NCBI GenBank assembly: GCA_003245525.1 | Contig: QKCY01000447.1 | Span: 1 to 32,936 of the forward strand | DNA length: 32,936 nt | Reading direction: 5' to 3' | From: Victivallales bacterium | Lineage (GTDB): Bacteria; Verrucomicrobiota; Lentisphaeria; Oligosphaerales; Lenti-02 | In this document: in pieces, positions 14,861-17,663 of the stretch | Layout: every line of letters begins with the position of its first letter | Position numbering within the stretch: position 1 is the stretch's first letter | Position numbers and translations under genes: made by a program | Notes under the pieces: generated by a model | Database searches by the model: none | What the model was told of the DNA's origin: nothing | Seen by the model: the letters and a program-made list of their open reading frames with translations, nothing else

Positions 14861-15133
14861 CTATTCGGTGGTGGCGAGTAGGTCGATCAGCCGCTTGCGC
14901 AGGGTTTCGAGTTGTTTCGACTTGAAGGAGCGCCGGGTGTCGTCGAGCACGGCGATCACCTCGGCCAAAGTCTGGCGCAGAAGACGCTGATGGGGACAGC
15001 GCACGGTGGGGCACGTAGCGAGGTCGACATGGGCGTGGGCTCCTTGGCTGACGTGGTGTAGAAGCTCTTGGTGAGCCTTGAGGCGCAGCGCCAGTTCTTC
15101 GGCGCTGCCCGCCAAGGCATCATGGATGGTCAT
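14861..15133 (-). CDS. Small uncharacterised protein with a CPTVRCPH motif (90 aa)
   Basis: MTIHDALAGSAEELALRLKAHQELLHHVSQGAHAHVDLATCPTVRCPHQRLLRQTLAEVIAVLDDTRRSFKSKQLETLRKRLIDLLATTE; lies directly behind the putative promoter/operator. Confidence 0.7.
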   Translation of the reverse strand: MTIHDALAGSAEELALRLKAHQELLHHVSQGAHAHVDLATCPTVRCPHQRLLRQTLAEVIAVLDDTRRSFKSKQLETLRKRLIDLLATTE

Positions 15134-15181
15134 GCCTGCACTCTCCCGAGGGGTGGCTGTGGAGGCGGTCAAACCGCATAG

Positions 15182-15218
15182 TATGTTACATTATAACATA
15201 ACAAGGAAAAGGGTGCAA
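15182..15218 (-). promoter_or_regulatory. Putative promoter with a palindromic operator overlapping the -10
   Basis: TATGTTA-cattA-TAACATA perfect 7-bp arms (15182-15200); minus-strand TTGCAC (15213-15218)-N17-TATAAT (15190-15195). Confidence 0.65.
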
Positions 15219-15286
15219 CCAGTATGGGCCAACAAGCTGGGCGGTATCGCGGCAGGCAACCCGTCCCGCCGCGCGAAGGAGGGAGG

Positions 15287-15817
15287 TCACTCCTGGTCGG
15301 CTGGCGAGGCGGGGGAATGGTGGAGATCGTCGAGCGCCAGTTCCATGCAGCGTTCGCACTTCTCGGGTTCTTCCGCAGGTTCGCAGAAGTACTCGTAGCT
15401 GCGGATCCATTTTGCCCCCCCGCGCGGGCAGCGTTGCACGAAATCCATGAAACTGGCCAGATGGTCCAGCACTTCCTTGTCCACGGCGTGCTCCAGCCGG
15501 CAGGCATTGCTCTCGGCCAACTCGTCCCGGAGCAAGAGCACATCGGTCAAGAACCGTTTCAGCACATCGTGCCGGTGCTGGATGCGCTTGGCGATGGTCT
15601 GCCCCTGCTCGGTCAGAGTCGGCTGGGCATAGGGCTGGTAGTGGACCAGGCCCTTCTCCGCCAGCGATCGCAAGGCCAGCGTCACGCTCGGCTTGCGCAC
15701 CGAGAGCCGTTCGGCGATATCCGTCACCCGCGCCTCGCCCGCCGAACGGATCAGCGACGCGATCGTCTCGAGATAGTCTTCCATCTCGCGGCTAAGAGTG
15801 AGGGTGGCAGCGGTCAT
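15287..15817 (-). CDS. DtxR/MntR-family metal-dependent transcriptional regulator
   Basis: LSREMEDYLETIASLIRSAGEARVTDIAERLSVRKPSVTLALRSLAEKGLVHYQPYAQPTLTEQGQTIAKRIQHRHDVLKRFLTDVLLLRDELAESNACRLEHAVDKEVLDHLASFMDFV; Cys-rich tail CPRGG...FCEPAEEPEKCERC. Confidence 0.92.
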   Translation of the reverse strand: MTAATLTLSREMEDYLETIASLIRSAGEARVTDIAERLSVRKPSVTLALRSLAEKGLVHYQPYAQPTLTEQGQTIAKRIQHRHDVLKRFLTDVLLLRDELAESNACRLEHAVDKEVLDHLASFMDFVQRCPRGGAKWIRSYEYFCEPAEEPEKCERCMELALDDLHHSPASPADQE

Positions 15818-15837
15818 TTTCGGCTCCGGAACAGGGC

Positions 15838-15857
15838 GTGTTTTGTTTGCCTAACAT
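15838..15857 (-). promoter_or_regulatory. Putative DtxR-type box upstream of the regulator gene
   Basis: GTGTTTTGTTTGCCTAACAT (plus strand); 19/20 identical to 17361-17380; minus-strand core TGTTAGGCAAACA is imperfectly palindromic and contains TTAGG. Confidence 0.55.
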
Positions 15858-16165
15858 GGCGGCGCAAAAACGGATGTCAAACCAGTTCCGGCGCATTTGG
15901 GTCCAGTGCTAGAGGAGAGTCCCCCGTCCTTTGGGCGGGGCCCAAGGGTTGGGCTAGGCCAATCCCGAATGGATCGTGTGTCCGGCCGCACTTTGCCCGG
16001 TCGGTCTGCTGTCTTCCAGAAGCTCCATCTGCATGCCGATGGAAAAGTGGGAGCCGCCTCCGTGCGGCGATGGAGCGGGTTGCATCCGGTTCTACCCGCC
16101 GCTTGACCAGAGCGGATCGCGGCTCCCGCCCTTGTCTGGGAACACGGCAAACCACGGGAAAGCCT

Positions 16166-16339
16166 GCCCTCCTATGGCATTCAACGGAATTACTGCACAT
16201 CAAGGAAAGCTTCCCCGTTCGTAGTCCAGGCTTTAGCCTGTGCGTTTCCCTGCCCGATCCAAGGGACAGCAGGCTGAAGCCTGGGCTACGAACAGATCGC
16301 TCACATGCCAGGTTATTCCGTTGAATGCCATTGGAGGGC
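16166..16339. repeat. MITE-like element: 28-nt terminal inverted repeats (26/28) around a second inverted repeat
   Basis: GCCCTCCtATGGCATTCAACGGAATtAC (16166-16193) and its inverted copy at 16312-16339; inner pair GTTCGTAGTCCAGGCTTTAGCCTG (16217-16240) and inverted copy 16270-16293 (22/24). Confidence 0.75.
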
Positions 16340-16371
16340 GAACCCATGCCCCCTCTTCTGGGCGGGATTCC

Positions 16372-17328
16372 TTACGAGGGGAGCGGAGCCGGATCGAGGC
16401 AGCTTGGGCCGGGGCAGGGGATGACCTCGATGGTCGAGTGGCGGATCTCGCCGAAGGTGGCAAGGAGTTGGCGATAGTGCTCGGGGGGTCGGGGCGAGTG
16501 GGTCACCAGCGCCACGGCCACGCTGAGCGAACCGCCGCCCAGGGTCCAGACATGGAGGTCGGCAACCCGGTTGTCGGCATCCGCTTCGAGGCAGTTCCGG
16601 ATGCGGTCCACGGTGGCGGGATCGACGCCGGCATCCAACAGAGTGCGAGCGGTTTCCCGCAGCAGGCCGAAGCCCCAGACCACGATCAGGACCGCGCCTA
16701 GAACGCCCATGGCGGGGTCCAGCCAGCGCAGGTTCCAGTAACGGACCCCGAGGAGGGCCGCCATGGCCAGGAGCGAGGTGAGGGCATCGGCAACCACATG
16801 GAGGAAGGCGGCCCGCAGATTGTGGTCGTGGTGATGGTGGTGCCCACGGTCGTCCTCGTGCGGATGGTCCTCATGGGGCTGGTGCAGCATGAACACGCTG
16901 AACAGGTTCACCGCCAAACCGATACAGGCAACCGTGAAGGCCTGCCGGAAGTGAATCTCGGGCTGACTGAACAGGCGATGAATCGATTCGGCGGCCATGC
17001 CCAACGCCACGATGCCGAGCACGATGGAGCTGGCAAAGCCAGCCAGGCTCTGGACCTTGCCCGTGCCGAAGGTGAAAGCCGGGTTGTTGCTCTGCCGGCG
17101 GGCAAAACGGTAGGCAAAGACGGTGATGCCCAGGGCAAACACATGGGTCCCCATGTGCCAACCATCCGCCAGCAGGGCCATGGAGCCGGTCAACCAGCCA
17201 GCCACAATCTCCACGACCATGGTACAGGCGGTGAGCAGGATCACCCATTGGGTCATCCGTTCCGCCCGCGTGGCTGCCGCGTCGAACTGGTGACTGTGTG
17301 TCCACTGGTCCATGTGAAGGGTATGCAT
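16372..17328 (-). CDS. dmeF: CDF-family cation efflux protein, DmeF-like (Co/Ni/other divalent metals)
   Basis: MDQWTHSHQFDAAATRAERMTQWVILLTACTMVVEIVAGWLTGSMALLADGWHMGTHVFALGI; FGTGKVQSLAGFASS; His-rich loop HQPHEDHPHEDDRGHHHHHDHN. Confidence 0.85.
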   Translation of the reverse strand: MHTLHMDQWTHSHQFDAAATRAERMTQWVILLTACTMVVEIVAGWLTGSMALLADGWHMGTHVFALGITVFAYRFARRQSNNPAFTFGTGKVQSLAGFASSIVLGIVALGMAAESIHRLFSQPEIHFRQAFTVACIGLAVNLFSVFMLHQPHEDHPHEDDRGHHHHHDHNLRAAFLHVVADALTSLLAMAALLGVRYWNLRWLDPAMGVLGAVLIVVWGFGLLRETARTLLDAGVDPATVDRIRNCLEADADNRVADLHVWTLGGGSLSVAVALVTHSPRPPEHYRQLLATFGEIRHSTIEVIPCPGPSCLDPAPLPS

Positions 17329-17360
17329 GTCGGTTCCCGAGGTGGCGAAGGGCCAGGATT

Positions 17361-17380
17361 GTGTTTTGTGTGCCTAACAT
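17361..17380 (-). promoter_or_regulatory. Putative DtxR-type box upstream of the CDF exporter
   Basis: GTGTTTTGTGTGCCTAACAT (plus strand); 19/20 identical to the motif upstream of the DtxR-family gene. Confidence 0.55.
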
Positions 17381-17663
17381 AATGCCGGCAGTCCCACTGG
17401 CAAGGAATCAGCGGACATTGTAGACGAGAGGGGGGGGCAGGTATTGCCCTCTCTGTCGGCACGTCGCCATGGCCATCGACTTGGCCCAAGCGGGTTGGGC
17501 AGTTTTCCTCGGCTCGCCGATTCTCCACGCCCAGTAGTTGGGGGTTGCCTGCCTACCCCGAGTCGCCGCAGACCCGGGTTTCACGCCGACCGGGTAGTCG
17601 CGCGGTCGATGAACGCGCGGGGGGCCGGTTGCCGACCAAGGTCCTGGTCCGCGTGGTCCCCCT

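Follow-up and report, generated by a model that had tools for sequence, protein, structure and literature searches.

A DmeF-type metal exporter as a candidate member of a feo-linked DtxR/MntR-type regulon in a Victivallales bacterium

The window, by which is meant the whole analysed stretch of 32,936 nucleotides from a Victivallales bacterium, harbours the genes of a DtxR/MntR-type regulator and of a DmeF-type CDF exporter, both located on the minus strand and each preceded by nearly the same dyad. The features on which the argument depends are listed below, the last of them lying on another contig of the same genome.

15287..15817, minus strand: DtxR/MntR-type regulator of 176 aa (PF02742 and PF01325 above cut-off)
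15839..15856, minus strand: candidate operator of the regulator gene, 18-bp dyad TGTTAGGCAAACAAAACA (pattern scans; 22.5 bits with a matrix from other genomes)
15853..15880, minus strand: predicted promoter of the regulator gene, TTGACA-16-CATGTT, with the -10 box overlapping the operator (shared by orthologues L004-L007, L068 and L069)
16372..17328, minus strand: DmeF-type CDF exporter of 318 aa (NF033827; HX3H, HX3D and His-rich loop)
17362..17379, minus strand: candidate operator of the CDF exporter gene, TGTTAGGCACACAAAACA (pattern scans; 21.8 bits with the matrix from other genomes)
17376..17403, minus strand: predicted promoter of the CDF gene, TTGCCA-16-TATGTT, with the -10 box overlapping the operator in the same register
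L115 2046-3035: gene for a fusion of a Fur domain with two FeoA domains, immediately 5' of feoB

The regulator displays the architecture of the DtxR/MntR family, an N-terminal winged helix-turn-helix followed by a metal-binding/dimerisation domain (PF01325, 59.4 bits for a cut-off of 26; PF02742, 74.1 bits for a cut-off of 27), and its nearest PDB entries by sequence and fold are the MntR proteins of E. coli and B. subtilis, which bears out the assignment to this type made in an earlier note on the same DNA. Since the protein scores below the cut-offs of the NCBIfam MntR equivalog models (97.9 bits versus 153 and 81.8 versus 138), the orthologue name MntR is not claimed for it. The predicted metal ligands D14, E17, H83, C106, E109 and H110, all invariant or more than 90% conserved, correspond to D8, E11, H77, E99, E102 and H103 of MntR, with Asp as in MntR and, at the E99 position, a Cys as in DtxR and PgMntR. 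The C-terminal SH3-like domain and the primary-site Met that distinguish DtxR/IdeR proteins are missing, the chain ending at 176 aa and carrying Asp at the Met10 position. The C-terminal tail is modelled at low confidence (pLDDT about 45-56); its residues 128-160 are rich in Cys (C130, C145, C154, C157), a feature shared by most feo-linked orthologues that might ligate Zn or an Fe-S cluster. A scan of the assembly found no DtxR-type gene besides this one.

The exporter reaches 365.7 bits with the NF033827 model (CDF_efflux_DmeF, cut-off 250), confirming its earlier description as a DmeF-like CDF exporter, and possesses HX3H in TM2, HX3D in TM5 and a His-rich stretch, the hallmarks of DmeF (PMC6044271), which are retained across the aligned homologues. 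Judging from the family to which it belongs, its substrates are most likely Co/Ni-like metals. No DmeR-type regulator was found beside the exporter gene, the neighbouring ORFs coding for the DtxR-type regulator and for unrelated proteins. The earlier statement that DmeF exporters normally depend on a dedicated DmeR does not always hold, a MarR-type regulator being used in Vibrio (PMC9820535). In two members of the phylum a CsoR-like ORF, recognized by sequence reading without a domain scan, occurs directly upstream of the exporter.

The 20-mers at 15838-15857 and 17361-17380 are identical at 19/20 positions, with one differing position, and are located 20 nt from the ATG of the regulator gene and 32 nt from that of the CDF gene, respectively; positions, identity, distances and minus-strand genes are all as the earlier note had given them. 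When up to 3 mismatches are allowed, the 20-mer has two matches in the window, versus none in 100 shuffles, and the whole 6.7 Mb genome contains only the same two copies; the pattern TGTTWNRN6WAACA also matches the genome exclusively at these two sites. A few additional 19/20 pairs of 20-mers, some of them repeats, exist in the window, so that the pair by itself is modest evidence, its strength deriving from its uniqueness in the genome, its position before start codons and its conservation in relatives. The additional pairs, together with a dispersed repeat that separates the two genes (16167-16323), could point to chance or to a shared repeat as the origin of the match, but the similarity ends at the operator edges and both copies in 6.7 Mb stand just 5' of a start codon, and the operator recurs in orthologues, which leaves such an origin extremely improbable.

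Comparison with relatives defines the operator unit as an 18-bp dyad, TGTTAGGCAMACAAAACA, of the form TGTT-N10-AACA with two 9-bp half-sites, which takes the place of the core TGTTAGGCAAACA previously regarded as the unit. The closest orthologues of the regulator (L004-L009) are 64-81% identical to it, and in nearly all of these loci feoA-feoB are found directly downstream of the regulator gene, accompanied by lbtU in L004; the exception is L009, whose stretch shows no feo genes. In L004-L007 the dyad occurs before the regulator gene and again before feoB. The regulator gene of the window is likewise preceded by an operator, as in its orthologues, which agrees with the autoregulation put forward earlier. 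Two further arrangements were observed, a second dyad at 6761-6778 of L009, in front of a gene for an outer-membrane-type barrel that reaches no family cut-off and may be another metal-linked target, and, in a family-level relative (G242, L169 1728-1777), two tandem dyads before the regulator gene, with starts 32 bp apart.

In the genome of the window feoAB are missing from the regulator locus, and feoB is located on another contig, behind the Fur-FeoA-FeoA fusion gene. The same-genus sister genome (G241), to which L004 belongs as matched by site coordinates, retains both feo loci, and its Fur-FeoA-FeoA gene is 79-82% identical. A third operator of the own genome, AGTTTGGTACGCAAAACA, is found 16 nt 5' of the ATG of the fusion gene and just downstream of the -10 box; it lacks the first T and has a lower score, and the sister genome shows AGTTTGGCGTGACAAACA at the matching position. 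The regulon is thus not merely local, as had been supposed; it would extend to the remote Fur-FeoA-FeoB locus and, in relatives, to feoB. With these genes in its regulon, the regulator has the appearance of a normal regulator of import. Both members of the genus carry the site before the fusion gene itself, which might lead one to suppose that the Fur domain of the fusion, or some other protein, occupies the sites. Operators of this kind are found with DtxR orthologues in several genomes, immediately 5' of the DtxR gene, and MntR operators have the same 18-bp form with two 9-bp half-sites (PMC11275975), so that binding by another protein appears very unlikely. The motifs of the window are preferably read as candidate operators of the adjoining DtxR/MntR-type regulator, an interpretation held at about even confidence together with the explanation as a whole.

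The genome scans relied on patterns and on a hand-made matrix, an 18-position sequence model having proved too weak in a whole-genome search, where it gave no match at E<=10, even to its own training sites. The pattern WGTTWGGNNNNCNAAACA with 1 mismatch occurs at exactly three places in the own 6.7 Mb genome, before the regulator, CDF exporter and Fur-FeoA-FeoB genes, and at four places in G241, corresponding to the regulator, feoB, lbtU (inside the gene) and Fur-FeoA. A reversed control pattern with 1 mismatch gave one match in the own genome and five in G241, so that single sites may be due to chance, and since WGTTWGGNNNNCNAAACA was designed after the sites were known, its clean list is supportive rather than independent. 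More independent is the matrix, trained on other genomes only and with the Fur-FeoA sites left out, which assigns 22.5 bits to the regulator site, 21.8 to the CDF site and 17.9 and 18.2 to the Fur-FeoA sites of the own and sister genomes, about 4 windows at >=17 bits being expected in a random 6.7 Mb. The stricter TGTTWNRN6WAACA was rejected as a description of the full regulon, as it misses the Fur-FeoA site by its first base, a site caught by the looser pattern. Farther out in the order the strict pattern is about as frequent as its control, and the claims on the regulon are therefore restricted to two genomes, that of the window and its sister. The assembly being 87.75% complete in 607 contigs, further sites are possibly missing from these counts. 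Many copies away from metal genes, named in the earlier note as one outcome that would refute its reading, did not turn up in the scan, and the reading was not refuted. In the sister genome, the site at lbtU (L004 9252-9269) lies about 200 nt within the coding sequence and may be fortuitous.

The direction of control can be approached through the geometry of the promoters. In seven genomes (the own genome, L004-L007, L068 and L069) the regulator promoter comprises a -35 box, a spacer of 16-17 nt and a -10 box, at the third base of which the operator begins, and the CDF promoter presents the same register. The latter is the sole promoter-like site found in 15100-17500, where shuffles average 0.6, which makes its prediction weak when taken alone. 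In B. subtilis, a single site covering the promoter serves MntR for repression, and mneP is activated by MntR through an array of four 18-bp sites in tandem (PMC11275975). Tandem 18-bp sites in 19-bp steps, typical of MntR-activated promoters, were sought at the CDF gene, and no second site was found within 120 nt of its operator. A single site on the -10 box with no tandem array speaks for a metal-loaded regulator that represses the exporter. The alternative that the regulator activates the exporter when loaded with metal, so that the sensed Fe or Mn is removed as by the MntR-MneP/MneS system of B. subtilis, finds some encouragement in the facts that MntR-activated CDF exporters also move iron (PMC9993123) and that Fe(II) is exported by some CDF proteins (PMC7762939). 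It is, however, distinctly unlikely, given a single site in the register of the self-regulated promoter, where mneP has four, and an exporter of the DmeF type with HX3H. Control of the exporter by the regulator, as suggested earlier, is supported by the same operator before the CDF gene, with repression as the predicted direction. The claim that a DtxR-type regulator coupled to a CDF exporter is unusual needs qualification, MntR of B. subtilis being an activator of mneP and mneS (PMC9993123, PMC11275975); the unusual point is that one lone site covers the -10 box, from which repression of the exporter along with import is predicted.

As regards the metal, the sequence alone fits Fe or Mn, since PgMntR has an identical ligand set and works with Mn, and since, according to a review, family members devoid of the SH3-like domain show no Fe response in vivo (PMC7762939). 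If Mn(II) were sensed, the linked FeoB would be a manganese importer within an all-manganese regulon, and the exporter would remove competitors or excess Mn. The D/C/E/H ligands are indeed those of PgMntR, a protein that Fe destabilises and that Mn causes to bind more tightly to the promoter of FeoB2, a Mn transporter (PMC4805248), and the closest folds are those of MntR. Against these similarities, the FeoB of the regulon goes with a Fur-FeoA-FeoA fusion, and feoA-feoB together with an LbtU-type siderophore porin belong to the regulon in relatives; a manganese regulon is accordingly regarded as unlikely.

The LbtU-type porin of the window was considered for the DtxR-type regulon and dropped, because its operon bears a different palindrome, TATGTTACATTATAACATA, which we take to resemble a Zur box. 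This palindrome occurs only twice in the genome, at 15182-15200 of the window and at 1501-1519 of L172 (0 and 2 mismatches), the former before the genes of a 90-aa protein and of the porin and the latter 35 nt before a ZnuA-like gene, so that the porin beside the regulator may belong to a zinc regulon. The 90-aa protein (14861-15133, minus strand), encoded between the regulator and the porin, contains a CPTVRCPH motif and, scanned as a 103-aa ORF, had no Pfam or NCBIfam match. The dispersed repeat between the regulator and exporter genes measures 157 bp, has inverted ends and recurs as an 87% identical copy close to the ZnuA-like gene of L172. The contig start (1-176) carries short repeats, both direct and inverted.

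No copy of the exporter was found in either of the two closest genomes, and its operator can therefore not be checked by conservation. Taken together with the differences between the feo loci, this suggests that the exporter appears to be a later addition, which joined a pre-existing regulon. In G081, another genome of the phylum, a DmeF homologue closes a same-strand run lbtU-feoA-feoB-feoB-feoC (feoC being read from the sequence), which is, judging from gene order, an independent link between a DmeF-type pump and iron uptake; of the 16 neighbourhoods of DmeF homologues examined elsewhere in the phylum, the 15 besides this one are without a feo or DtxR link.

From these observations we infer a model in which a dimer of the regulator, loaded most likely with Fe(II) and possibly with Mn(II), would bind the 18-bp dyad and silence its own gene and the exporter gene from over the -10 box, and the Fur-FeoA-FeoB ferrous-iron importer from just downstream of the -10 box. 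Under metal shortage all three would be released together, and the exporter would then expel competing divalent metals, most likely Co, Ni and perhaps Zn, which enter through the induced iron uptake or are most harmful during that uptake. Such joint repression of import and exporter by the metal-loaded regulator, with clearance of stray Co/Ni-like metals in iron starvation, stands in our estimate at about an even chance. The stronger formulation, that the CDF exporter and the ferrous-iron importer form one repressed set whose Co/Ni-type pump is on in iron starvation, as a bacterial counterpart of the plant IRT1 and IREG2 proteins co-induced in iron deficiency (PMC10740792), is offered more tentatively. 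Metal exporters are usually viewed as induced by an excess of their own substrate, and the present arrangement suggests instead a joint induction of import and export under iron scarcity; if true, a pump belonging to the iron-starvation set would mean that cells anticipate mis-metallation on opening an unspecific iron import. The compact regulon, with three sites in the genome, would also illustrate how a single 18-bp operator can bring an exporter under a regulator already in place, in a group for which the literature searched holds no worked-out metal regulation; on this regulon itself nothing was found, subscription journals being mostly outside the search.

Depending on the component considered, the predicted regulon resembles different known systems. 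With the B. subtilis MntR-MneP/MneS system it shares a DtxR/MntR-family regulator, an 18-bp dyad of 9-bp half-sites and a CDF exporter in the regulon, but the B. subtilis exporters are activated from four tandem sites, whereas here a single site on the -10 box predicts repression, the CDF protein is of the DmeF type and the regulon is feo-linked. The P. gingivalis PgMntR-FeoB2 pair offers the same D/C/E/H metal site in a DtxR-family protein that targets a FeoB-type transporter; PgMntR differs by two fused FeoA domains, in place of the short Cys-rich tail of the window regulator, and no exporter was found described in its regulon. The DmeRF systems (RcnR/CsoR-type DmeR in Rhizobiaceae, MarR-type DmeR in Vibrio) likewise combine a DmeF-type exporter with a nearby metal regulator, which here is of the DtxR/MntR type, with feo genes in its regulon and no adjacent DmeR. 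Finally, the czcABC efflux system of Geobacter sulfurreducens, induced by Fe limitation through Fur (PMC7726332), ties a cobalt-type metal exporter to iron limitation, as predicted here, although it does so with Fur and an RND pump, whereas the Victivallales bacterium would employ a DtxR-type regulator and a CDF exporter.
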